From contig JAOLZO010000007.1 of the NCBI GenBank assembly GCA_028343845.1, positions 12,501 to 76,500 of the forward strand: 64,000 nucleotides of DNA, written 5' to 3'. This document shows positions 1,540 to 54,966 of the stretch, one piece after another; the first letter of the stretch is position 1; each line of letters starts with the position of its first letter. The notes beneath the pieces were generated by a model that was not told where the DNA came from, ran no database searches, and saw nothing but the letters and a program-made list of their open reading frames with translations. A program made the position numbers and the translations under genes. Origin of the DNA: Verrucomicrobiota bacterium (GTDB lineage Bacteria > Verrucomicrobiota > Verrucomicrobiia > Opitutales > Seribacteraceae).

Positions 1540-2517
1540 TTGCGAGAAGCAAGTATCACAGATTGCCTCGCCGACCTGCTGGGTGGAGGCATAGTCGCTC
1601 TGCCAACTGAAACGGTTTATGGTTTGGCGTGTCTCGCCCTCGATGACAATGCCGTGCAGAAGGTTTTCGATCTGAAAGGCAGACCGTCTACAAATCCTTT
1701 AATCGTCCATGTTCTGAACATTGAGCAAGCAGAGAATATCGCCGAGCTCAATTCGATCGCAAAACTACTGTGCCAAGAATTCTGGCCCGGCCCTCTAACT
1801 CTCATCCTGCCCAAGAAGGCAGTGATACCCGAAAAAGTGACGGCAGGTCTCAATACGGTAGCGATCCGATCACCGTCCAACCCTCTTTTCAGAAAAATCC
1901 TCGAGAAGGCCGATCAGCCTCTGGCCGCCCCTAGTGCCAACCGCTTCTCCAAAGTCAGCGCTACAACCCCTCGGGAAGTCATGGACTCGTTCGGTGAAGA
2001 TTGTCCCCCCATCCTGGATGGAGGGAAAAGCAACATTGGGTTAGAATCCACCGTCCTTGACCTGACTGGCGATACGCCTGAAATCCTTAGGCTCGGTCCA
2101 ATATCGAAAAGAGAACTTGAAAAGTTTCTTGAGATTGAAATCCTCAATTATTCCAAAACGAAGCATGCCAACACCGCACAAAAATCTCCCGGTCTTTCCT
2201 CCAAGCACTACTCACCTGAAACCCCGATTTGTCTGTACAAGGATGTCTCCGCAATCCTGCAAGTCGAGCATTGGACTGCAGACGACTTGATTATTTTTCC
2301 AAGCGAGAATTTGATCCCCAGTTCAAAACTGGAACCAGCTACGGCAATCGCTTTTTCTGTGACTGGCGAGGCAAAGGAGATTGCCCACAATCTCTACGCC
2401 ACTCTCAACAAGGCGGACCGCTTTGAAAAGAAACTCATGCATATGGCATTACTGGAAGATGGTGGAGACGTGGCCGGAGCTGTAAACGACAGACTGACGC
2501 GAGCTTCGAGCTCGTAG
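1540..2517 (+). CDS. tsaC: L-threonylcarbamoyladenylate synthase (Sua5-type)
   Basis: This enzyme makes threonylcarbamoyl-AMP from Thr, bicarbonate and ATP, the first step of t6A formation at tRNA position 37. The YrdC domain covers about residues 1-200 with PTETVYGL (22-29) and KGRPSTNPLIVHV (46-58), then APSANRFSKVSATT. A linker with SPGLSSKHYSPETP leads to the smaller Sua5 C-terminal domain, so this is the long Sua5 form (325 residues), not the short TsaC. Start is TTG at 1540; no ATG or GTG lies in frame between the end of rpsR and this point. It follows rpsR by 35 bases and may be cotranscribed. Confidence 0.92.
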   Translation: MREASITDCLADLLGGGIVALPTETVYGLACLALDDNAVQKVFDLKGRPSTNPLIVHVLNIEQAENIAELNSIAKLLCQEFWPGPLTLILPKKAVIPEKVTAGLNTVAIRSPSNPLFRKILEKADQPLAAPSANRFSKVSATTPREVMDSFGEDCPPILDGGKSNIGLESTVLDLTGDTPEILRLGPISKRELEKFLEIEILNYSKTKHANTAQKSPGLSSKHYSPETPICLYKDVSAILQVEHWTADDLIIFPSENLIPSSKLEPATAIAFSVTGEAKEIAHNLYATLNKADRFEKKLMHMALLEDGGDVAGAVNDRLTRASSS

Positions 2518-2602
2518 GGCAAGTTATAAATGGCGGATTGAAAATTTCTTCTTGTTATCAATCTGCAATGATGAAATGTTAGAGTATCGTACTTATTTTA
2601 TC

Positions 2603-4390
2603 ATGAAATTAACTTGTGCAAGCACCATCATTCTTTTGAGTTTCCTCCCTTTTTTATTGTATTCTCAATCGGAATCGCAGTTGAGAGATCCCGAATACCT
2701 CATAGGAGAATACAACCAGTTAGTGGCAAAACATAATGCACTGATTGAAAAGACCAGGGTATTGATCACCCAAGCAAAAAGCGCACCAAGCTCTGACCTT
2801 GGTGCCGAGGAGGAACTCAGGCAATCCCTTAATGAGGCTTTGGCCAAGGCAGCGACCCTTGAAAATCAACTCTCCAAGATAAAGCAGGCCGGTCTGCGAA
2901 CCGATACCAGCAATCAATACTTGGATGACACAAACTCAAGATTGAGAAGGCAACTTCAGGAGCTCAAGGCAGACGAGCAAGAACTTGTTCAACGCAACAA
3001 GGAACTGACTGCCCAAAACAGAAGGCTTTCCAACACTCAGAAATCTTTTGATGCCCAAGAGAAAAGCGCTTACTCCAAAATTCGTAATTTGGAGCTTGGA
3101 AAATCCACCGTTGAGAGAAGATCAAACAACATCTTGGCCGAAAATAAAACCCTGTCCGCAGAGAATAAGAAACTCGAAGCCTTGCGGGAAAAACTTGAAA
3201 GGGAAAATGCCACCCTCAAGCAAAAGATCGCGGGTTTGGGAGTTGATATGGATTCGAGTTCGGCACGCCTGACGGATACTGAAGCTCTCCTCAAAAGCAA
3301 GAGTTCGCAGGTAAAGACTCTGGAGACTAACGAGGTCAAGCTTAAGGAGGACGTCAACGGGCTAAAGAACGAGGTTGCTCGTCTAGCTGGCGTAGAAGAT
3401 TTGCTCAAGGATAGGGTTGCGAATCTAATCGATGAGGGTGAGCTCTCCAAAGATCGCCACCGGGAGGTTGAAATTGAGAACGAAGCAATGCTTGCCGAGA
3501 TAGAATCCCTTAGGGAACTGGCCAACGAGCTAAAGTTCGAATCAGCCAGAAAAGGCGAAGGGATTGCCAACCTGCAGTCTTTGAATGGCGATTTGAAGAC
3601 CGATCTCGACGAGCTAATCGCGAGGAACAACGAGCTCAAATTTTCAGAATCCTCAATGAAAGGAGAGTTGTCCTTGCTTCGTTCGGAACTGACATCCCTA
3701 GGACTTGAGGAATCCAGAATCTCAGATCAATTGCTTGGGCTCCGCGACGCCAACGAGATGTTGCTGTCCAAAACCAAGAATTTGGAGTCCGAAAACATTG
3801 GCATGGAGGAAGCGATCGACTTAATGCGAGTCGAATTGCAGAACATGAACACCAATGAACAAGGACTCGTGAGCAAAGTTCGAGACATAGACCTTCAGAA
3901 TCAGTCGTTATTGGAGGAATCCAGTGCATTGAAGGAAGAGAGTGGATTCTACAAGGACAAATCACGTCAGCTCGAGATTCAGCTCACCCAAGCCATTGGA
4001 AACGAAAGAATTCTTAATGAGAACATGAGTCTACTGGAAGGGCGTAATGCCCAGCTACAAAATGAAGTTGCAAGCCTCAAGAACAATGCAACCAACGCGT
4101 ACGAACAACTTACACGCGAGGCACAACAGCTCCAATTGGAGCTTAGTGAAATCGCGGGAAGAGAACAGTCCCTGCAAAACACTTTAAATAACCTGCAAAC
4201 GGAAAACGGCCGACTCAGGAGCGAGTTGGCAAATGGTCAAAGCAGGGAAGGCGAATACAATCGTCAAATTGCGATTCTCAATGCGGACAACAGTAACTTG
4301 ATGCAACAAATCGAGGCAACCCAACGGATGCGATTACGATTGCGTAACGACATCATTGGGGTGATTGACCAAAACGACGACGGAAACTAA
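2603..4390 (+). CDS. Secreted or periplasmic long coiled-coil protein, function unknown
   Basis: I place the start at ATG 2603 because the first residues (MKLTCASTIILLSFLPFLLYSQS) form a good signal peptide. The frame is open from 2552, but the extra residues would bury the signal. The remaining roughly 570 residues are almost all heptad-like Leu/Glu/Lys/Asn sequence with recurring motifs such as LEAENxxL and ENxxL, a long continuous coiled coil. No enzymatic domain is visible. It stands between tsaC and the convergent accA. It may be a structural or scaffold protein of the periplasm or outer membrane; no function can be assigned from sequence. Confidence 0.8.
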   Translation: MKLTCASTIILLSFLPFLLYSQSESQLRDPEYLIGEYNQLVAKHNALIEKTRVLITQAKSAPSSDLGAEEELRQSLNEALAKAATLENQLSKIKQAGLRTDTSNQYLDDTNSRLRRQLQELKADEQELVQRNKELTAQNRRLSNTQKSFDAQEKSAYSKIRNLELGKSTVERRSNNILAENKTLSAENKKLEALREKLERENATLKQKIAGLGVDMDSSSARLTDTEALLKSKSSQVKTLETNEVKLKEDVNGLKNEVARLAGVEDLLKDRVANLIDEGELSKDRHREVEIENEAMLAEIESLRELANELKFESARKGEGIANLQSLNGDLKTDLDELIARNNELKFSESSMKGELSLLRSELTSLGLEESRISDQLLGLRDANEMLLSKTKNLESENIGMEEAIDLMRVELQNMNTNEQGLVSKVRDIDLQNQSLLEESSALKEESGFYKDKSRQLEIQLTQAIGNERILNENMSLLEGRNAQLQNEVASLKNNATNAYEQLTREAQQLQLELSEIAGREQSLQNTLNNLQTENGRLRSELANGQSREGEYNRQIAILNADNSNLMQQIEATQRMRLRLRNDIIGVIDQNDDGN

Positions 4391-37669: not shown

Positions 37670-39453
37670 GTCGCATCAAACTTAATTACGTAGCATCGCT
37701 CTTTTTCCTTATCGTATTCGGCATAGGCTTCTTCACTGCCCATTCATTCATGCCAAAGCTCCGCCAATGGAAATCGAATAAAATGTTTTTGCAATCGAAG
37801 GTTTATCTGGACGAATCCATTGAAGGAACAAGCGACCTCATGCAAGATGGCATTCGGAAAGCTCGTCTTGCCCACTTGCTCGATCCGAAGAGCAAGGAAA
37901 CTTTTGAAAATTACAATCTGTTGCTTTTTCGAGCGGAACCTGCCGAAGCATTAAGGAATTGGTCCATCCGGCTTGAGAATCAAAACGTCTTGGTCGAGGA
38001 AAGAATCCTTCTTTTGGAAAGGTGCATGGATACGCTTAGGAATGATGATCTAGCCCCTTCGGAACGCAAGAAGGCCGGAAAGCTTGCATTCGTGCAAGTG
38101 AACCATCTCGTGAACATAGATCATTGGACTGACAGCCCTGAAAATGCTCTCATCGTATGCGAATTGCTGGCGGAAACGGGAAACCAAGCCCAAGCTCTGA
38201 GCCAAACGAACCTACTTCTGGAAAAATTCCCCGGACACCCTCAGGCAATCTTTCTTATCACACGCTTGTCCGTCCACCTCAACGACCGCTCAAAAATTGG
38301 ACAGATAGCAACCTCACTAGCATCACTTTCCGCACAGAGAAACGAAGTCGGCATTGACGCAATCCGTCATATGACCCTGCTACACTTGATCTACCCACTT
38401 GCGCCAAAAAGCTTAAGCAAATGCATTGACCTTCTTAATACAAACCAATTTGCAAAACCAATAGATTTCCTGCGAATCAACGCTCTCCGCCTTGCGGCAT
38501 CGAGCAACGAAGGAGAAAAGAGCTCTATTATAGAAACATGTTCGGAGCTTTTTGACTTGGAAAATACTGAAGACCTCAGGACTTTCGCGAATTGGCTAGC
38601 TAGGCTCAAGGAATTCAAAGCACTATTGAAATTCTTGCCAGCATCCAAAGCATCGGTTGACGAAACCCTATTCAAAACCAGAATGAATGCCCTCGCCCAC
38701 TTAACCGATATTGAAAGTATTCATCGCGAGGCAAAGAACGCTCCCATAATCCCAAGTCAGTGGCGAATCGTAGTCGAAGCTCGAGCCTTCGCCCTTACAG
38801 GGAATTTCAAAGAAGCCACCGACATTTTGGACCGCTTACTTCCCGTCCTTGGAGACGATTACAGGAAGGTTCGTACAGTTTGCGAGTATCTTGAGCAGTC
38901 AAATGACATTTCCAGTTTGGTACATATTCTCGAGAAGCTTATTGATAAACCGATCCATCAAAGATATGCACTACGGAAACTCATGCAGCATCGAGCGGCA
39001 TCAGCATCCCTGCAAGAACTTCTGACTTGGATGTCAAAGCTTTCTACAATGGAAGATAATGATCCTTCTTTTTCGGAAACCTACCTGTATTTTGAGCTAT
39101 TGAATCCGCTTATGCCCTCCCCTTCCATAGAGCTTTCTCGATTAATTGAGGAGGCGAAAGCCAATCGCCTCAAGCAAGATTCCTCTCAAGCACGCATCAC
39201 CTTGGCACTCTCCCACTTGAGAAACGAAGCCCCGGATCAAGCCCTCGTAGCCCTAGGGGAACCAGAAGACTGGAGAATATGGCAAGGCTCTCGTTCCGCT
39301 TGGGCCTTTATCTGCGCTCAAGTCCTGAGACTCAATCACGACTCGGAAAAAGCTTTCGTCATTATGGAAAAAATAGATTTTAAAAAAATGGACAGGGCGG
39401 AGCACGACAGCCTCCGGACAATCTTTCCTGATCAATTTCCATCATCCAAGTGA
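37666..39453 (+). CDS. Membrane-anchored TPR-like protein of the exosortase/EPS operon
   Basis: The 595-residue protein has one N-terminal membrane segment (VASLFFLIVFGIGFFTAHSF) followed by all-helical sequence with degenerate TPR-type pairs (for example ALIVCELLAETGNQAQALSQTNLLLEKFPGHPQAI and ARAFALTGNFKEATDILDRLLPVLGDDY). No catalytic motif is seen. Its overlap with both gmd and the exosortase gene (ATGA, then GTGA) implies coupled translation. TPR proteins are common partners in exosortase-linked EPS assembly (PrsT/PEP-CTERM-system TPR type). A scaffolding role in the periplasm is inferred. Confidence 0.75.
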   Translation: MSRIKLNYVASLFFLIVFGIGFFTAHSFMPKLRQWKSNKMFLQSKVYLDESIEGTSDLMQDGIRKARLAHLLDPKSKETFENYNLLLFRAEPAEALRNWSIRLENQNVLVEERILLLERCMDTLRNDDLAPSERKKAGKLAFVQVNHLVNIDHWTDSPENALIVCELLAETGNQAQALSQTNLLLEKFPGHPQAIFLITRLSVHLNDRSKIGQIATSLASLSAQRNEVGIDAIRHMTLLHLIYPLAPKSLSKCIDLLNTNQFAKPIDFLRINALRLAASSNEGEKSSIIETCSELFDLENTEDLRTFANWLARLKEFKALLKFLPASKASVDETLFKTRMNALAHLTDIESIHREAKNAPIIPSQWRIVVEARAFALTGNFKEATDILDRLLPVLGDDYRKVRTVCEYLEQSNDISSLVHILEKLIDKPIHQRYALRKLMQHRAASASLQELLTWMSKLSTMEDNDPSFSETYLYFELLNPLMPSPSIELSRLIEEAKANRLKQDSSQARITLALSHLRNEAPDQALVALGEPEDWRIWQGSRSAWAFICAQVLRLNHDSEKAFVIMEKIDFKKMDRAEHDSLRTIFPDQFPSSK

Positions 39454-41141
39454 GTTCCACGACTGAGAAAGATTCAAGCGAAGAAACGAAAGTCCTCGCA
39501 AAAACTGTACTCGGCGCAATTTCACTTTTTGCACCATGGCTACTTTTGATATTCCAGCTCTCGATCACTTGGGATACCAACGAGCAATACTCCCATGGCT
39601 ATTTCGTGCCCGTGCTATGTTTGTTTTTGCTGCTCAAGGCAAATATCCCTGAGGTTTCGGATGTTGAGAGCCCTTCACCAAAACCCCTAGTCGGAAAGGT
39701 CTTCTTTCTTTTCGGCATTCCACTGATGCTGATCTTTGTTGCTCTCTGGTTCGTTAGGGGGGCAAATTCCGACTGGCGCTTGCTTAACCTTGTCTTATTT
39801 GCAGTCGTCGTAGTTTACACTCTCACTCAATGGTACGACCGAGGGGGGTGGAACCGGATCAAACCGATGCTCTTCCCTCTGTTTTTCTTTGTGGTCGCAA
39901 TTCCCTGGCCTCTAGCCACTGACCTCAAGCTCACCCAGTGGTTCCAGGAACGCATCTCCTCACTAATCGTCGACATTCTTCTTTTGCTCGAACACGAAGC
40001 TCGCTTGGAAGGTACGGTCATAGATGTCGGTGTCTTCGGTCAGATCGGAGTGGATCAGGCGTGTAGCGGAATTCACGGGCTTCAAGCCTCCTTGGTCGTA
40101 ACTCTTTTTCTCGGAGCTTACTACAAGTTCCATCTGATTAATCGGGTGATTTACGTACTTGCAGGGACAATGATTGCCCTTCTGCTCAACCTATTCCGGG
40201 CATTCGCGCTATCGTTCATAAAAGTAAAAGGAAAAGGAGAATGGCTCGATCAACCAATCCTTTCACTCGGTAGCTGGGAAGCTCCCAACGTTCATGATTC
40301 GGCAGGATTCATCGAAACTGCAATTATTCTCCTGATGATCATCTTCCTCGGGAAAATGGCAAAAGGAAAGGGGTTCAGGCGCACCCTGAGCCATGAACCC
40401 ACTTTATGGACGAATTTGAAGTCAAGTCCACCCATTTGGCTAAGCATAACCAGCATCCTCATTTTTGCAGGATCGGTTATAGGGAGCGAATGGCATTACC
40501 GCAGTACGGAAAAGGCAATGGAGAGCCTCCCTCACCTGTCCTTGAGCTTGGATGATCCGGAAATCCTTACTGAAGAACAGCTTATTTCTCGTCAAGTGGC
40601 CGCTCAGTTGCACTTCGACAGCGCCCAATCCATTCAATGGCAAGAACGCTTCAGGCTACGCCCCGGACCCTATGGTATTGGCATGAAAATCGATCCCAAC
40701 GGTGAATACTGGCAAGCTTTTGAATGTAACTGGAAAAGTGGCGGAGCATGCACGGCAATTCTTTCTACCCACTCGCCCGAATCTTGCCTGCCTCTAACTG
40801 GATTAGTTCAAATATCGCCGGCACGAAACACACCACCGACTACGATCCCGATCAGGATTGGAGACCATGAGGTACTTTTTGAGATCTATGAATTCGTAAG
40901 GGATAATCGCAAGCTCTTCGTGTTTCGTTGTTTTTGGCCAAGCAAGATGCTCGCTGGTACCAAGAATGTATTTCCATCCGGTGGCTATAATTTCAAGGGT
41001 CGTATCAATGCCACCCTCGAGGGTAAAAGGAACGTAGGCGGAACTATGTTGGCAATCGCCTTGGCCAATGTTGAATCCCACTCGGATGCGATAGAAAAAA
41101 TGCGTTTGCTAGCTGAAAGCAAATCAATCTCGCTGGAATAA
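39450..41141 (+). CDS. Exosortase fused to a C-terminal EpsI-like domain
   Basis: The 563-residue protein has an eight-membrane-segment exosortase domain (about 20-305). Its catalytic triad is visible: Cys205 in DQACSGIHG, Arg250 in LLNLFRAF and His282 in NVHDSAGF. EQYSHGYFVPVLCLFLL is the usual N-terminal signature. After another membrane segment (about 328-345), residues 346-563 form an EpsI/DUF3485-like periplasmic domain with HSPESCLP (His441, Cys446). Exosortases cut and sort proteins with PEP-CTERM-type tails. The target is not visible in the window. Start is GTG at 39450, overlapping the TPR gene. Confidence 0.88.
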   Translation: MSSTTEKDSSEETKVLAKTVLGAISLFAPWLLLIFQLSITWDTNEQYSHGYFVPVLCLFLLLKANIPEVSDVESPSPKPLVGKVFFLFGIPLMLIFVALWFVRGANSDWRLLNLVLFAVVVVYTLTQWYDRGGWNRIKPMLFPLFFFVVAIPWPLATDLKLTQWFQERISSLIVDILLLLEHEARLEGTVIDVGVFGQIGVDQACSGIHGLQASLVVTLFLGAYYKFHLINRVIYVLAGTMIALLLNLFRAFALSFIKVKGKGEWLDQPILSLGSWEAPNVHDSAGFIETAIILLMIIFLGKMAKGKGFRRTLSHEPTLWTNLKSSPPIWLSITSILIFAGSVIGSEWHYRSTEKAMESLPHLSLSLDDPEILTEEQLISRQVAAQLHFDSAQSIQWQERFRLRPGPYGIGMKIDPNGEYWQAFECNWKSGGACTAILSTHSPESCLPLTGLVQISPARNTPPTTIPIRIGDHEVLFEIYEFVRDNRKLFVFRCFWPSKMLAGTKNVFPSGGYNFKGRINATLEGKRNVGGTMLAIALANVESHSDAIEKMRLLAESKSISLE

Positions 41142-46704: not shown

Positions 46705-46775
46705 ACTTTCCTTTATCAAATTGAATCAACAATTGCCCATTAAGCTAATTGATTTCGAGCGAAAAGCACCTGATC

Positions 46776-47912
46776 ATGCTGAAATGCTCTAATTGCGTAA
46801 AAAAAGACACGCTTCAGCTCAATCAGACAAGTGATCGGGCGGTTATGTCGGATGGAAGCTTCGCCAATGATTTCGGCGCGACACAATCCCTCTGCAGATC
46901 TTGTGGCTGCATTTTCATCACTTACCAACCATCCAACCGACTGGAAAAATACTTTTCTGAAGAGTATGATGTTTCGGACGAAATCCAAAATTGCCAAGTA
47001 GTTGTTTCCGGAAACAGACAAGGCAAGCACTCTCTTATTCACAATTCGCTACTGGACTCATGCGCGGGTCTTCCTTCGCATGGGCGTTTTTTGGAAATAG
47101 CTTGTGGCAATGGCACTCTTTCAGAAAAGTTTGCTGAAGCCCACCCAAATTGGGAGTGCCTTGCCATCGATCCCTCCAATCAAAGCGCCCGGAATAGATA
47201 TGAAAAAGTTCATTTCATTCATGATTTCTTTGATCCCGCATTGTTTCAGGGTGAAAGTTTCGACGTAATTGTGGCACATGGAATCTTGAACCGAACCGCG
47301 CCAATGGAAATGCTTAGGGGAATTGCATCCATAGCGAATCAGAATGCCCTGATCAGCATCGAAATCGTTACTCTGGAAAATTCTATTTTTGCACCATACA
47401 TTTGGGATCATTGCTACACTTTTTTAGAGGAGGTCTTTGTCGGCTACTTGAATTCTTGCGGCATGACAGTCGATCATCGGGTGGACTGTGGTCCTACCAT
47501 CCAATTCATATGCAGATTCGACAAAGAAATGGCTATTGGAAATAATGCCGGTTTCCCTGAAACGGTCGACTCATCTCTTTCCTTGTACCAAGATCACATT
47601 GCAAAGTGGGAATTAATCAAAAATAATTTCCTGTTGGCTCTCGCTCGAAACGAAGGTAAAAAAATAGCTCTTTTCGGAGCTGGTCTTTACAATGCAGTTC
47701 TAATCAACATTCTAAAAGAGCCCAAGTTTGATTTTGTCATAGACGAGGTTAGAGCCGGTCGATTTTTCGAAGGAATAGAAATCATTAGTTTGGACGATGC
47801 AGTAAGGAGCGAAGAGGCCATGGTCGTCTTCCTTTGCTCCAGACCATCTAACCTTGATTATATCAACGAAAAGCTAGAGAATAAGGGATTCTTAGTCGAA
47901 TCCTTGTTGTAA
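46776..47912 (+). CDS. Class I SAM methyltransferase with N-terminal zinc ribbon
   Basis: The 378-residue protein (ATG 46776; an in-frame TTG lies at 46749) has two CxxC pairs in its first 45 residues (CSNC, CRSC). The SAM-binding motif is FLEIACGNGTLSEKF, with a DP acidic loop in CLAIDPSNQ. The C-terminal part (KIALFGAGLYNAVLINIL and a following VIDE) looks like the C-terminal nucleotide-binding-like domain of sugar C-methyltransferases of the TylC3/NovU type. It may methylate an NDP-sugar. It begins the modification cassette that runs to 52519. Confidence 0.8.
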   Translation: MLKCSNCVKKDTLQLNQTSDRAVMSDGSFANDFGATQSLCRSCGCIFITYQPSNRLEKYFSEEYDVSDEIQNCQVVVSGNRQGKHSLIHNSLLDSCAGLPSHGRFLEIACGNGTLSEKFAEAHPNWECLAIDPSNQSARNRYEKVHFIHDFFDPALFQGESFDVIVAHGILNRTAPMEMLRGIASIANQNALISIEIVTLENSIFAPYIWDHCYTFLEEVFVGYLNSCGMTVDHRVDCGPTIQFICRFDKEMAIGNNAGFPETVDSSLSLYQDHIAKWELIKNNFLLALARNEGKKIALFGAGLYNAVLINILKEPKFDFVIDEVRAGRFFEGIEIISLDDAVRSEEAMVVFLCSRPSNLDYINEKLENKGFLVESLL

Positions 47913-47936: not shown

Positions 47937-48689
47937 ATGAGTAATATTTTTGAAGTTTCCAATTGGAATGAAATACCGCTTCCCGAAATCTATGATTCCC
48001 TCAAAACGGAGACTTATGCGGCCATCAGAGGCATAATAGATCCGGAGGAGCTAGCAAGTTGTGTTACTACAATCAAGCAAAGGTTTTCACAGAATGAAGA
48101 CAATCCTCCGACAGGCGAATCGCCAAGCGACATCATGACGAACTTCCAAAAGCTCGCTACAGGGGGGGAAAGTAAGCGCTATAACAATTTTCCTCGTTTC
48201 TTTCGCACTCTTTACAACCCCATTTGGGCTGATGACATCTATGGCATGAGAAGCATCTTCAAGAAAGTTTCACGAGTAAGGAATTTGATATATGGCTTGC
48301 CTGAAGATTTTGCGATCGAAGAAGTGGCTTCTAACGGGTACTGGACGGCATCAAGAATCCACCAATATCCTTCCGGTGGCGGCTTTTTCCAAGGACATAG
48401 AGACACAACGCTACTGGATGTAGCGAAGGAAAAAGGCACTGGTTTTTTTCAAGTCATACTGGTCATGAGCAAAAAGGGACAAGATTTTGAACAAGGGGGT
48501 GCTTTCGTTGATAAAAACGAAGATGAGAGATTATACCTGGAGGACCTCCTGTCACCGGGTGACATTGCCATCTATAACGGCGAAACCGTTCATGGGGTAG
48601 AAGACATCGACCCACACAGAAAACTCTCACTTGATACGCTCAACGGAAGATTGGCAGGTTTTGTTTCCTTATACAAAAAAATGGATTAA
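47937..48689 (+). CDS. Putative Fe(II)/2-oxoglutarate-dependent oxygenase
   Basis: The 250-residue protein shows a jellyroll-oxygenase pattern: HxD in FFQGHRDTT (His154, Asp156), then GGAFVDKN, LLSPGDIAIYNGETVHGVEDI (distal His219), and Arg228 in DPHRKL, a likely 2-oxoglutarate anchor. No close named family is recognised. The stop codon of this gene shares a base with the ATG of the ligase-carrier fusion, so the two products are probably made together and may act on the same carrier-bound intermediate. Confidence 0.72.
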   Translation: MSNIFEVSNWNEIPLPEIYDSLKTETYAAIRGIIDPEELASCVTTIKQRFSQNEDNPPTGESPSDIMTNFQKLATGGESKRYNNFPRFFRTLYNPIWADDIYGMRSIFKKVSRVRNLIYGLPEDFAIEEVASNGYWTASRIHQYPSGGGFFQGHRDTTLLDVAKEKGTGFFQVILVMSKKGQDFEQGGAFVDKNEDERLYLEDLLSPGDIAIYNGETVHGVEDIDPHRKLSLDTLNGRLAGFVSLYKKMD

Positions 48690-50185
48690 TGCTTAGGTTT
48701 TTATACCCCAAACCATTCGAAAACAAACTTCAGTCGTCCTATTTCAAGGAAACGCTCGAAAGAAGTTTTTTATTTCGTGAGCTCATAGTTTCAACCGATA
48801 AAGTAAGCTATAAACTTGCTCGGCAAGGGGATTCCGAAAAGGCTCTGACAATAATCACAAAGACCTTTGCAGTGGCTGAAAAAATGACTGTAAACAAGGT
48901 TTTTGAAAAAAAGGCTGATGCGGTTTTCAATGACGACATTTTCGACAAACTGATCGGAAATGGGGAAGTTAACGAAATCGGTGACGGCATTTTTGTATTT
49001 CAGGGACAATTCCTCAAGCTCATGCGGTTTTTTGATGGCATATTCACGAAATTTGCCGATGAGTTGAATGGGGTCGAACAGTACTACCCTACTCGCTGGC
49101 CAATTGAACTCTTTAAGAAAATCAACTACTTTGAGGAATTCCCTCAAAATATTCTTCTCGTTTCCGGAGCAAAAAAGGAAAGGGAGGCTCTTGAGTCGCT
49201 CATTGATAAATACGGTAAAAGCAATGATTTCAAAGAAATTGAGCTAGGCGACTTTCTCGAACCAGCAACAACAGCCTTAGGCACTTCAACATGCGATCCA
49301 TGCTACTACATACACAAAAACGGAAAGCTTGGCAAAAACGAGACATACTACGCCTTGAGCAAATGTTTCCGGAATGAAAAATCCACAACCAACCAACTGG
49401 ACAGGTTGACTGAATTTTCAATGCGCGAAGTGATAGCCGCCGGCGAAGAGGAATATGTCAAATCCCAAAGAGAAATTTTTCTAAAATTTATTGAATCTTT
49501 TGCCTCTTTTACTGGACTTGCATGTAGCCTCGAAAAGGCAAGCGATCCTTTTTTTACGAATGAAATCCCCGAAAAAGGTGCACTGCAAAACCACATAGAA
49601 AGCAAATTCGAGCTTTTGGTTCCTCTTGGCAACGGACGATCCGATCTAGCAGTCGGTTCGGTTAATTGGCATAGTGATTTCTTCGGCCGATCTTTCGAAA
49701 TCCGAGACAATTCCAATTATTATATGTCAAGTTGCTGCCTGGCCTTTGGTTTGGAAAGATTGGTTTTTGCCTTCCTTACTCAATATGGAATGACCAGATC
49801 CGAGTGGCCTGCCGAGGTGCAAAAAGACTTTGCCGATTTCGAAACTAATGGGTCAGGATCAAAAACTTCACTGCTAGAGATTCGGACGCCAAATCAAAAG
49901 GTCTCTCCCTCAGCCAATGAGATAAATGGAAAGGATGAGGATCTCAATACTTCGGAACATCGCGAATTGCTGAGAAGACTACTCGTTGAATCATTGAATT
50001 TGGAACCGACTGAGGAAAAATGGTTGAGCTCTCGCAATACTTTCAATTGGGACTCACTGAATCACATGAAGGTGATTACCTGCATAGAGGAACGCTTTGA
50101 AGTAGTTATTCCGAAGAAAAATCATTCCACGCTTATGGATGAGAAATCAATTCTTACCTTTTTAGAAAGTGAATCCAGCGAATGA
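48689..50185 (+). CDS. Amino acid:carrier-protein ligase (SerRS-like) fused to an acyl carrier protein domain
   Basis: The 498-residue protein has a class II aminoacyl-tRNA-synthetase core (about 125-385): motif 2 FRNE (227-230) and motif 3 GLER (354-357). It lacks the coiled-coil tRNA-binding arm of SerRS. Cys202, Glu247 and Cys350 lie where zinc ligands sit in bacterial amino acid:carrier-protein ligases; the spacings 45 and 103 equal those I recall for the Bradyrhizobium enzyme. Residues about 420-498 form a carrier domain with a DSL motif (FNWDSLNHM, Ser456 as phosphopantetheine site). It probably adenylates a small amino acid and loads it on its own carrier arm. Confidence 0.82.
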   Translation: MLRFLYPKPFENKLQSSYFKETLERSFLFRELIVSTDKVSYKLARQGDSEKALTIITKTFAVAEKMTVNKVFEKKADAVFNDDIFDKLIGNGEVNEIGDGIFVFQGQFLKLMRFFDGIFTKFADELNGVEQYYPTRWPIELFKKINYFEEFPQNILLVSGAKKEREALESLIDKYGKSNDFKEIELGDFLEPATTALGTSTCDPCYYIHKNGKLGKNETYYALSKCFRNEKSTTNQLDRLTEFSMREVIAAGEEEYVKSQREIFLKFIESFASFTGLACSLEKASDPFFTNEIPEKGALQNHIESKFELLVPLGNGRSDLAVGSVNWHSDFFGRSFEIRDNSNYYMSSCCLAFGLERLVFAFLTQYGMTRSEWPAEVQKDFADFETNGSGSKTSLLEIRTPNQKVSPSANEINGKDEDLNTSEHRELLRRLLVESLNLEPTEEKWLSSRNTFNWDSLNHMKVITCIEERFEVVIPKKNHSTLMDEKSILTFLESESSE

Positions 50186-50835
50186 ATGTCTTGATATACG
50201 GAGCTGGCGTCCTAGGTGCCCAGGCTTACCATTTGCTCCATGAAATGCCTGAATTCAATATCTCTGGTTTTATTGACGACACAAAGGAAATCGGAGAATC
50301 AATATTTCCCGATCAGAAAGTTACTGAAAACAGGGAAACATTAGAGAAAAAAATATCGAAGGAGCCCAACTTCACAAAGGATTATGGTCTTGCTTTGGCT
50401 ATTGGCCCGGACAATTTAGCAGCTAGATGGAAGGTATTTCGATGGGGGTTCGAAAAAGGATTTGATTTCCCTAACTTGATTCACCCTAGGGCATCCGTAG
50501 ATGCTTCCGCCTCAGTAGGCAAAGGTAACATAATACTCGCAAATGCAACCATCGACCATGAGGTATCAATAGGGGATGCAAATTATTTGGATATCGGTTG
50601 CCTGATTAGTCACAACAGCGTTATTGGTAATAATAATTTTCTCACCACAGGTTGCGCAACCGCAGGAAACGTTAAATTCGGCAACCATAATTTCGTAGGG
50701 ATGCATTCGACTTTCACAGACTATGTTGAAGTTGGTGACGAAAATTATTTTTCGGCTAAAAACCTAGTTAACCGAAACATTCCGGATAGAAGAAAAATCC
50801 TCACTTTCCTAGACCAAAAGAGTCTCCCCATTTGA
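50182..50835 (+). CDS. NeuD/PglD-family sugar acyltransferase
   Basis: The 217-residue protein has the N-terminal Rossmann-like part (VLIYGAGVLGAQAYHLL, GFIDDTKE) and a left-handed beta-helix of hexapeptide repeats (about 110-195), including ASVGKGNIILANATIDHEVSIGDANYLDIGC. The usual catalytic His is in NATIDHEVSIG. Family members N-acylate UDP- or dTDP-amino sugars. Its four-base overlap with the ligase-carrier fusion suggests that the acyl donor might be the carrier-bound amino acid; acetyl-CoA is the conventional donor. Confidence 0.87.
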   Translation: MNVLIYGAGVLGAQAYHLLHEMPEFNISGFIDDTKEIGESIFPDQKVTENRETLEKKISKEPNFTKDYGLALAIGPDNLAARWKVFRWGFEKGFDFPNLIHPRASVDASASVGKGNIILANATIDHEVSIGDANYLDIGCLISHNSVIGNNNFLTTGCATAGNVKFGNHNFVGMHSTFTDYVEVGDENYFSAKNLVNRNIPDRRKILTFLDQKSLPI

Positions 50836-51827
50836 GCCGAGAATTATTCAGTCGTCTTTTGCAATGCAATCACTGCAATTCGGACAATTTGAATTTAGAC
50901 AAAGCTAACTTCAAGAACTCGCTAAAACCAGAAGGTAAGGTAACTTGCAACGAATGCGAATCAGTTATGCCTTTTGTAAATGGTGTTCTGATAGCAGGAA
51001 AGAGAAACTGGACTCAAAACCAAAAGCGTAACGCTTATGTATATAGTGATTTTTGGGAAAGAAGCGATGAGGCGATAAAATATCAGAGAGTGACTCATGA
51101 AGATGAGTTAATCGAATTATGGCGCAAAAGTTTCGGGGAAGGGGTTTTATTGGACGCTGGGTGTGGTTCGGGACGACATTTGAGTCATTGGACTCAAACC
51201 GATGTGAAGGCAGATTCGTTCGTTATGGTTGATATTTCTGACAGCATCTTTCAGTGCAGAAGATATTACGAAAAAATCAACTGCGCAAAACCCGTGATTT
51301 TCATCCAAAGTTCAGTAAACGAGATGCCAATCAAGAAGCAATCGATTTCAAGCACATGGTCAAGCGGTGTCGTTGGGTTACTCGAGGATCAACAGCATGC
51401 TATTCAAGAATTATGCCGTGTTAGTCAAAGGGACATTATTTTAGGAGTGCTGACTGAAAAAACGATTGCCGGGAAAATATACATCGCTGCAAATCTAGTG
51501 AAACCCTTTTTGAACAAAGTCAAAAATATGAAATTATTGTTTATGCTTTCGGGATTAATGGCCAGAGGAGCGATTTTGATGCTTAAGTTATTGAACTTCG
51601 TTAACTTGCCGCTCTCCTTCATAAGAAAAGAGCATTTGAATAATATTTTAAACGACCCAAATGCTATCGTCCGACTACAACACTCGCTCTATGACCCAAT
51701 CATAATCCCAAGGATAATTAAACATCCAGATTCAAAATATGTCGAATGGGGTGAAAAATATGACTTCAAACTAAAAGCACACCAAACAGAAATAATTTGT
51801 GACTATTTCCATTTCAATAAAAGATGA
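50832..51827 (+). CDS. Class I SAM methyltransferase with N-terminal zinc ribbon
   Basis: The 331-residue protein begins with a Trm112-like zinc ribbon (CNHC at residue 12, CNEC near 39), then a SAM motif LLDAGCGSGRHLSHW and the acidic MVDISDSIF. The C-terminal third contains hydrophobic stretches but no clear membrane span. Its target is unknown, probably a sugar or the acyl group of the cassette. Start is TTG at 50832; TTGA overlaps the stop of the acyltransferase gene, and its own end overlaps the WbqC gene by four bases. Confidence 0.82.
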   Translation: MSRELFSRLLQCNHCNSDNLNLDKANFKNSLKPEGKVTCNECESVMPFVNGVLIAGKRNWTQNQKRNAYVYSDFWERSDEAIKYQRVTHEDELIELWRKSFGEGVLLDAGCGSGRHLSHWTQTDVKADSFVMVDISDSIFQCRRYYEKINCAKPVIFIQSSVNEMPIKKQSISSTWSSGVVGLLEDQQHAIQELCRVSQRDIILGVLTEKTIAGKIYIAANLVKPFLNKVKNMKLLFMLSGLMARGAILMLKLLNFVNLPLSFIRKEHLNNILNDPNAIVRLQHSLYDPIIIPRIIKHPDSKYVEWGEKYDFKLKAHQTEIICDYFHFNKR

Positions 51828-52519
51828 GTAAAAAAGTAGCGATAGTTCAGTCAAATTACATTCCATGGAAAGGTTATTTTGATATCATCGCACATGTGGA
51901 CGAATTCATCATTTTTGACGAAGTCCAGTTTACAAAAAGAGATTGGCGAAACCGCAATAAAGTCAAGACTCCGCAAGACCTGCTCTGGCTCACAGTCCCC
52001 GTATTGACAAAAAGCAATTTCCTTCAGAAAATCAGTGAAACAAAAATCAATGGTGATCTCTGGAAAAAGAAGCATTGGAATGCGTTGAGAGTCAACTACC
52101 AGAAGGCAAGGTTCTTCAATGAGATTTCCGAATTGCTTGCAGACTTTTACCAAGCTAGGGAATTTGAATTTCTTAGCGATGCAAACAGATACCTGATCGA
52201 TTTGATTTGTGGTTTCCTTGACATTCGTACGAAAATTTCTTCTTCGGCCGAACTGAACCTACCTGAAGATAAAAACGAACGGCTAATCTCCATGTGCAAA
52301 CAGGTAAAGGCGGATGTCTACCTTAGTGGAAGGAGTGCTCAGGGGTACATAGACCTTAATGAATTTTCAAATGCCGGAATTTCCATCGAGTGGTTCGATT
52401 ATAACGGCTATCCAGAATACGACCAACTCTGGGGGGAATTCGTTCATGAGGTTTCGATTCTTGATTTATTATTCAACTGTGGGAAAAGCTCGAACACCTT
52501 CATGAAATTCTCCAAATAA
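51824..52519 (+). CDS. WbqC-family protein
   Basis: The 231-residue protein matches the WbqC-like family: VAIVQSNYIPWKGYFDII at the start, FIIFDEVQFTKRDWRNRNKV, and a late DVYLSGRSAQGYID then WFDYNGYPEYDQLW. WbqC proteins occur in O-antigen and other glycan clusters. Their biochemistry is poorly known, and transfer of an amino acid to an amino sugar has been a plausible suggestion. Here it sits with an amino acid:carrier ligase, which supports such a role. No membrane segment is present. Confidence 0.88.
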   Translation: MSKKVAIVQSNYIPWKGYFDIIAHVDEFIIFDEVQFTKRDWRNRNKVKTPQDLLWLTVPVLTKSNFLQKISETKINGDLWKKKHWNALRVNYQKARFFNEISELLADFYQAREFEFLSDANRYLIDLICGFLDIRTKISSSAELNLPEDKNERLISMCKQVKADVYLSGRSAQGYIDLNEFSNAGISIEWFDYNGYPEYDQLWGEFVHEVSILDLLFNCGKSSNTFMKFSK

Positions 52520-52526
52520 CTGCTTC

Positions 52527-52823
52527 ATGCCATCCCCAAAAATAATTCTTGGAATTTCGGCTTTCTACCATGACAGTGCGGCCTTCCTGCTGATTGATAG
52601 TGAGATTGTTGCCGCATCCCAAGAGGGAAGATTCAGCAGAATTAAACACGGCAATTCTGATACTGAGAAAAACCAAATTCAAAAGAATGACAAAGAGGAA
52701 GAATTCCAAGTCAAACAGGGTGCAAACAAAAGTTTGCTTATTGAGTCTAACATGTTATCCGAGGACAATAAGAAGTTGTGGATCATGCCTATTATGCTCT
52801 GCCTGATACTTTTCGGCGCTTAA
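52527..52823 (+). pseudogene. Remnant of a NodU/CmcH-type carbamoyltransferase (5' end) joined to a degraded DUF5989 gene
   Basis: The first 40 or so residues (KIILGISAFYHDSAAFLLID, then SEIVAASQEGRFSRIKHGN) are a clear carbamoyltransferase N-terminus of the NodU/CmcH family. Intact members have roughly 580 residues. After residue 42 the sequence becomes unrelated Lys/Gln/Asn-rich sequence, then runs into the start of a DUF5989-type small membrane protein (MLSEDNKKLWIMPIMLCLIL). About 1.6 kb of the gene has been lost. The reading frame is still open by chance, but no functional transferase can result. Confidence 0.8.
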
Positions 52824-53838: not shown

Positions 53839-54966
53839 TTGAAAACAATTCCTTTCAACAAGCCCTACCTGACCGGACATGAATTCGAGCACATTAGGGA
53901 TGCACACAAACAGGGCCAATTAGCTGGGGATGGTTCATTCACGAAGCTTTGCCACGCTTGGCTAGAAGAAAACACAGGATGTCGAAAAGCGTTGCTAACG
54001 CACTCATGCACCGCCGCGCTCGAGATGTCAGCCATGCTCATCGATATAAATCCTGGAGATGAGATCATCATGCCGTCGTACACTTTCGTATCAACAGCTA
54101 ATGCATTTGCTTTGCGTGGCGCGATACCGGTTTTTGCAGATATTCGTCCAGATACGCTCAATATCGACGAGAACCTGATAGAAAGTCTAATTACCCCTCG
54201 AACAAAAGCGATTGTACCCGTTCATTACGCAGGGGTTTCCTGTGAAATGGATGAAATTCTGGAGATAGCCAAAAAAAATGGTCTTTTTGTTATCGAAGAT
54301 AGTGCTCAAGGAATTTGCTCCTCATTCAAAGGGACCGCGTTAGGGACAATGGGACAGATTGGTTGCCTGAGTTTCCATGAAACAAAAAATATCCACTCAG
54401 GTGAAGGGGGTGCTATTCTAATAAATGATTCAAGTTTAATCGAAAGAGCCGAAATCATAAGGGAAAAGGGAACGGATCGATCTCGTTTTTTTAGGGGTCA
54501 AGTTGATAAATATACTTGGATTGACTTGGGTTCATCTTATTTACCTGGAGAGCTAATAGCTGCCTTTTTATATGCTCAATTAGAAGAATCTTACGAAATA
54601 ACAGAGAGACGCCTAAAAAGTTGGGGGAAATATCATAAAGCTTTCAAAGAACTTGAGAGATGCGGAAAACTGATGAGACCAGTGGTTCCAAGTTACGCAA
54701 ATTCGAATGGTCATATTTACTATATCATTTTAGATGAAACAATTAACCGTGATGCACTAATCGAAAAGTTAAAATTAAAAGGGATCGATACCGTTTTTCA
54801 CTATCAACCTCTGCACCTCTCTCCAACAGGAAAAAAACTCGGACAAACAAAGGGAAATCTTCCTGTAACCGAAGATATTTCTCGCCGAATTTTGAGATTA
54901 CCTCTTTGGATAGGAATGGATGAGCAGCAAAGAGTGATGGAAGGAATCGCAGAAGTGATCATGTGA
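53839..54966 (+). CDS. DegT/DnrJ/EryC1/StrS sugar aminotransferase, RffA/WecE-like
   Basis: The 375-residue PLP enzyme shows PFNKPYLTGHEFEHIRDA, THSCTAALEMSAMLIDINPGDEIIMPSYTFVSTANAFALRGA, Asp154 in VIEDSAQG, and the PLP lysine Lys183 in FHETKNIHSGEGG. These match RffA/WecE, which makes dTDP-4-amino-4,6-dideoxygalactose (Fuc4N) from the 4-keto sugar. An amino sugar is just the acceptor the amino acid-loading cassette upstream would need. Start is TTG at 53839. Confidence 0.92.
   Translation: MKTIPFNKPYLTGHEFEHIRDAHKQGQLAGDGSFTKLCHAWLEENTGCRKALLTHSCTAALEMSAMLIDINPGDEIIMPSYTFVSTANAFALRGAIPVFADIRPDTLNIDENLIESLITPRTKAIVPVHYAGVSCEMDEILEIAKKNGLFVIEDSAQGICSSFKGTALGTMGQIGCLSFHETKNIHSGEGGAILINDSSLIERAEIIREKGTDRSRFFRGQVDKYTWIDLGSSYLPGELIAAFLYAQLEESYEITERRLKSWGKYHKAFKELERCGKLMRPVVPSYANSNGHIYYIILDETINRDALIEKLKLKGIDTVFHYQPLHLSPTGKKLGQTKGNLPVTEDISRRILRLPLWIGMDEQQRVMEGIAEVIM

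Follow-up and report, generated by a model that had tools for sequence, protein, structure and literature searches.

The window, i.e. the whole stretch of 64,000 nucleotides of a marine bacterium analysed here, carries a polysaccharide locus in which one gene encodes both an amino acid:[carrier protein] ligase and an acyl-carrier domain (Table 1). The surroundings include an RfaH-like antiterminator, an exosortase, Wzm/Wzt-type export, glycosyltransferases and epimerases, and with the WecE-type gene downstream the setting among glycan genes described in the original prediction was confirmed. Consecutive genes from the oxygenase through the WbqC family overlap by 1-4 bases (47937 to 52519), with four-base overlaps joining the ligase, N-acyltransferase and methyltransferase genes. 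A congeneric sister species (Opitutia MAG, contig JABGWU010000281.1; L006/L040) shows the same gene order between the ligase and WbqC. Since the WbqC-family protein is only 54% identical between the two species, against 85% for the ligase, 83% for the PglD-like protein and 78% for the methyltransferase, the conserved block consists of the ligase-carrier, the N-acyltransferase and the methyltransferase, and WbqC belongs to it less clearly. Three other genes of the locus deserve mention. An exosortase-family gene (39450-41141) lies near the head of the locus. Just before the oxygenase, a methyltransferase (46749-47912) whose C-terminal part has a sub-threshold match to a C-methyltransferase domain may modify the same product as the oxygenase. 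Finally, a short ORF (52527-52823) begins like a NodU-type carbamoyltransferase and ends early, being probably the remnant of a longer gene.

Table 1. The fused gene, its parts and its neighbours (positions are those of the window)
Feature	Position	Strand	Remarks
Probable 2OG-Fe(II) oxygenase	47937..48689	+	HxD 154-156, distal His 219/227, Arg 228/238; 1-base overlap with ligase start
Fused gene as a whole (498 aa): amino acid:[carrier protein] ligase with acyl-carrier domain	48689..50185	+	ATG start, intact ORF
N-terminal extension, residues 1-59	48689..48865	+	no profile match; length and layout like long-form relatives, sequence similarity not significant
Class II synthetase-type ligase core, residues 60-380	48866..49828	+	NF005479 67-380, TIGR00415 60-381, Bll0957 99-378
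Cys202, candidate zinc ligand	49292..49294	+	aligned with first Zn Cys of Bll0957
Motif 2, FRNE 227-230	49367..49378	+	R228, E230 invariant
Glu247, candidate zinc ligand	49427..49429	+	invariant
Cys350, candidate zinc ligand	49736..49738	+	invariant
Motif 3, GLER 354-357	49748..49759	+	alignment of 12 ligases
Linker, residues 381-420	49829..49948	+	dN/dS 0.62 vs 0.06 in ligase part
Acyl-carrier domain, residues 421-498	49949..50182	+	profiles, shuffles, model, fold search
Ser456 of DSL (D455 S456 L457), predicted 4'-phosphopantetheine site	50054..50056	+	Ser conserved in aligned ACPs; start of helix II
PglD/NeuD/perosamine-type N-acyltransferase, left-handed beta-helix, candidate aminoacyltransferase	50182..50835	+	catalytic His144; 4-base overlap with ligase end
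SAM methyltransferase, part of conserved block	50832..51827	+	78% identical in L006
WbqC-family protein	51824..52519	+	adjoins block; only 54% identical in L006
WecE-type dTDP-4-amino-4,6-dideoxygalactose (Fuc4N) transaminase, candidate acceptor-amine source	53839..54966	+	PRK11706 587 bits, cut-off 375

The PglD-like protein combines PglD_N with hexapeptide repeats (TIGR03570, 128 bits vs 161), and its best PDB matches are perosamine N-acetyltransferase, then LpxD and PglD. Together with VioB, these proteins are amino-sugar N-acyltransferases with a left-handed beta-helix, and their catalytic His is kept here: it is His144, whose counterpart in the 4eaa variant of perosamine N-acetyltransferase is replaced by Asn. 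The N-terminal part of a WecE-like gene was also seen by eye downstream in the sister species. The oxygenase has no Pfam, NCBIfam or PDB match, so its assignment rests on the HxD...H motif recognised by eye, and no match to it was found in the sister species genome, which is 82% complete.

The ligase part belongs, to judge by profile and structure-database matches, to the SerRS-derived amino acid:[carrier protein] ligases. The NCBIfam profile NF005479 (amino acid--[acyl-carrier-protein] ligase) matches residues 67-380 with an E-value of 6e-43, and Bll0957 of Bradyrhizobium (PDB 3mey/4h2s) matches residues 99-378 at 5e-28. Methanogen-type SerRS are matched more weakly (3w3s, 3e-12; 2cim, 6e-6), thus the fused protein is closer to a carrier ligase than to a tRNA-charging synthetase, the kinship against which the prediction was to be checked. 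Indeed, the SerRS model TIGR00415 scores 81 bits against a cut-off of 490, and its tRNA-binding N-terminal region (positions 1-169) is unmatched, the model aligning from position 170 on. As for the active site, 12 diverse ligases, when aligned, show no variation at C202, E247, C350, R228, E230, G354 and R357, and almost none at E356. In the PDB alignment, C202, E247 and C350 coincide with the Cys-Glu-Cys of Bll0957, whose zinc ligands we take to be Cys131, Glu176 and Cys279. The predicted class II core with motifs FRNE and GLER and without the SerRS tRNA-binding arm, as well as the three candidate zinc ligands, are thus all borne out. The same core, Cys-Glu-Cys zinc site and motifs 2 and 3, likewise without a tRNA-binding domain, characterize the Bll0957/NF005479-type ligases, but these act on a separate ACP, whereas here the carrier is on the ligase chain. 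The fused protein also stays below the NF005479 equivalog cut-off (147 of 357 bits) and, in the tree, forms with the sister species a deep branch of its own, separate from the rhizobial types and from those of other Verrucomicrobiota. The superfamily assignment holds, but with its fused carrier the protein is not of the known two-protein form.

In contrast, the unusual N-terminal domain of roughly 120 residues that had been proposed does not stand. The stretch preceding the conserved core is about 60-98 residues long (profiles start at 60-67 and the Bll0957 match at 99), and seven long-form relatives carry N-terminal extensions of similar length. In a profile comparison with these relatives, the extension reached rank 2-4 among about 2000 shuffles (E 0.1-0.3), short of significance.

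The C-terminal 78 residues are poorly recognised by Pfam, with a sub-threshold score for PP-binding_2 (17 bits vs 32, E 0.006) and no report of PF00550. More sensitive comparisons nevertheless point to an acyl carrier. Against a profile of nearby ACPs, the domain outranks all 5000 of its own shuffles, and a six-domain profile made of it and five homologues retrieves E. coli ACP at an E-value of 4e-11. The most similar sequences found belong to ACPs of polysaccharide or sugar loci (L007, L008, L009), with which it has NWDSLNHM in common. The AlphaFold2 model of the domain (pLDDT 79, pTM 0.68) has an ACP-like helix layout, and when the PDB was searched by fold (Foldseek, VIA-align 2), the top-ranking hits were acyl carrier proteins throughout, with a Z-score of about 10. 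The structure prediction originally called for therefore gives a four-helix ACP fold with the serine at the start of helix II, in agreement with the predicted carrier domain and its DSL site at Ser456. A full-length AlphaFold2 model, computed from a 3-row alignment, had a pLDDT of 36 and was set aside. The phosphopantetheinyl transferase family PF01648 was not found in the organism's own genome, probably because this genome is incomplete (64%).

That ligase and carrier are on one chain is supported by the sister species, whose fused frame is likewise continuous and shows 85% identity over residues 150-498, the contig breaking off within the ligase gene. Between the two species, dN/dS is 0.06 for the part of the ligase covered and 0.22 for the carrier, but 0.62 for the linker. 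Judging from these rates, the ligase and the carrier are both under purifying selection, and the linker that joins them is loosely constrained. Conversely, no fusion is seen in 20 further distinct ligases, drawn from plasmids, phage records and genomes, each of which stops where its ligase domain stops. In several cases (L022, L035, L036 and L043) an ACP gene directly adjoins the unfused ligase, which makes the fusion look like such a pair joined into one gene. Database searches extended this picture. The plasmid collection gave 87 records with a match and the phage collection one, none of them covering 80% of the fused query. Viral contigs gave no match with the fused query and one unfused ligase when the ligase alignment was used as the query. 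Peptide patterns run on genome contigs returned only the sister species for the ligase and no further fusion. Nor was a further fusion present in sampled collections of 373 genomes of the order, 388 of the phylum, 237 of the Omnitrophota phylum and 369 of a gammaproteobacterial class. Collectively, these data show that the enzyme type is known but that its fused form is genuine and rare, the sister species being the only second case in the collections sampled. Since the ligase was present in only two of the genus genomes searched, the locus is accessory.

These features suggest a self-loading ligase-carrier from which the PglD-like N-acyltransferase then moves an aminoacyl group to a 4-amino sugar, a reading to which, taken as a whole, we give slightly better than an even chance. 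In the SerRS-derived core, ATP, Zn2+ and a small free amino acid would be bound, the last being probably Gly, Ala or Ser, and aminoacyl-AMP would be formed without tRNA. The aminoacyl group would then pass to the phosphopantetheine thiol on Ser456, either of the same chain or of the partner chain of a dimer, and the PglD/perosamine-type enzyme encoded by the next gene would take it from the carrier. A plausible acceptor is the amine at position 4 of a nucleotide-linked 4-amino-4,6-dideoxy sugar, e.g. dTDP-Fuc4N from the WecE-type enzyme. Trimming of the aminoacyl group or of the sugar may fall to the oxygenase and the methyltransferase, and the aminoacylated sugar would finally enter an ABC-exported surface polysaccharide. 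LpxD, which takes fatty acyl-ACP, and LpxA are acyl-ACP-dependent, so ACP donors fit the fold of the PglD-like protein. More tentatively, and with somewhat less than an even chance in our view, the locus could encode a one-chain, tRNA-free aminoacylation machine acting on sugar nucleotides, in which the ligase loads its own carrier domain and the PglD-type enzyme uses the aminoacyl-carrier instead of acetyl-CoA to modify a 4-amino sugar destined for a surface polysaccharide. If true, an aminoacyl-carrier donor would be new for an enzyme of the PglD/LpxD type, and the one-chain reading would give synthetase-derived amino acid:carrier ligases their first physiological function. We know of no established route by which alanyl or glycyl groups reach the amino sugars of bacterial polysaccharides. 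Such groups occur on amino-6-deoxy sugars (Qui4N/Qui3N) in marine O-antigens (PMC3210612). The small gene block bears both on this question and on the role of such ligases, is amenable to in vitro reconstitution and, the carrier being fixed to the ligase, no search for the cognate carrier is needed.

The donor of the PglD-like protein is the point at which another explanation competes best. PglD-family enzymes with known donors use acetyl-CoA, and the protein may thus be an ordinary acetyltransferase, the aminoacyl acceptor being something else. The fusion would then work as described, with the carrier feeding the WbqC-family protein or a transferase of the locus that escaped recognition, or with the aminoacyl group oxidised and methylated first. 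Relatives of the PglD, VioB and perosamine types are indeed named acetyltransferases, two further PglD-like genes are present in the same genome, and the WbqC-family gene lies within the same overlapping string in both species. However, the low conservation of WbqC looks as if this gene were outside the block, while it is the PglD-like gene that is coupled directly to that of the ligase. We consider this explanation unlikely, though still one to be reckoned with. Participation in a small-molecule or lipid pathway of NRPS-like character, with a chance presence in the polysaccharide locus, seems quite improbable. Relatives from Streptomyces (L014/L015) and Rhizobium (L016) do reside in operons of the NRPS/PKS or acyl-CoA-dehydrogenase type, but among the genes around the fused one none was recognised as encoding a condensation, thioesterase or ketosynthase function, and the neighbours in both species are sugar enzymes. 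The weak Pfam score of the carrier and the restriction of the fusion to one genus could hint at a frame joined by assembly error or at a functionless carrier; yet the continuous frame with its linker recurs in two independent MAGs, the carrier has kept DSL and a low dN/dS, and its ACP fold is confident, making such an artefact or degenerate fusion very improbable. Finally, a tRNA-charging seryl-tRNA synthetase of unusual form is hardly credible despite the residual likeness to methanogen-type SerRS, the unmatched tRNA-binding region being too short here, Bll0957 being closer and a carrier domain being attached.

DltA and AlmE, the activators of two known carrier systems, are ANL-type adenylating enzymes and not synthetase-derived; a Pfam match to the AMP-binding family (ANL adenylation domain) is absent from the fused protein. 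DltA/DltC and AlmE/AlmF/AlmG load a small amino acid on a carrier for transfer to an envelope polymer or lipid A (PMC12930378). The task is analogous to that proposed for the self-loading ligase-carrier, but the carriers are separate. For the synthetase-derived ligases themselves, a 2022 paper still described the biological role as unknown (PMC9437257), though a note in proof of 2010 had predicted from gene neighbourhoods that they transfer an amino acid to a surface sugar (PMC2922099). The Agrobacterium Atu2574 neighbourhood considered there also combines a synthetase-derived ligase, an ACP and an amino-sugar transferase, but the transferase candidate is another one (Atu2574 family) and the ACP is separate. 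No test of this surface-sugar prediction was found in our literature search. Thus the handing of an amino acid to a glycan, which the original prediction drew from the fusion and its setting, had been anticipated, whereas a ligase-carrier fusion was not described in the literature searched (Mocibob 2010 and 2013 lay outside its scope). As far as searched, the fusion and its pairing with a PglD-type N-acyltransferase and WecE are new.

Among the unfused ligases, the Omnitrophota pair (L036) has the same ligase-then-carrier order with glycan genes around, but as two separate genes, and its ligase is 29% identical to the fused one; the pair adjoins a Wzx-type flippase and WbuX (N-acetyl sugar amidotransferase). 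A viral contig (L043, IMGVR_UViG_3300037189_013583) carries a ligase at 2306-3702 followed by its own ACP gene, possibly a phage-borne aminoacylation pair, together with ORFs that by eye resemble a DNA polymerase and a clamp. Another ligase and ACP pair (L022, MT835751.1, 7740-9235) comes from a gut record labelled 'Bacteriophage sp.' which also has ABC transporter and transposase-like ORFs and is of bacterial appearance. In other Verrucomicrobiota (L010-L013, L042), a short ligase of 242-267 aa is accompanied by one or two ACPs and by NAD-dependent epimerase-like and ferritin/heme-oxygenase-like genes, a recurrent ligase pathway of another kind.
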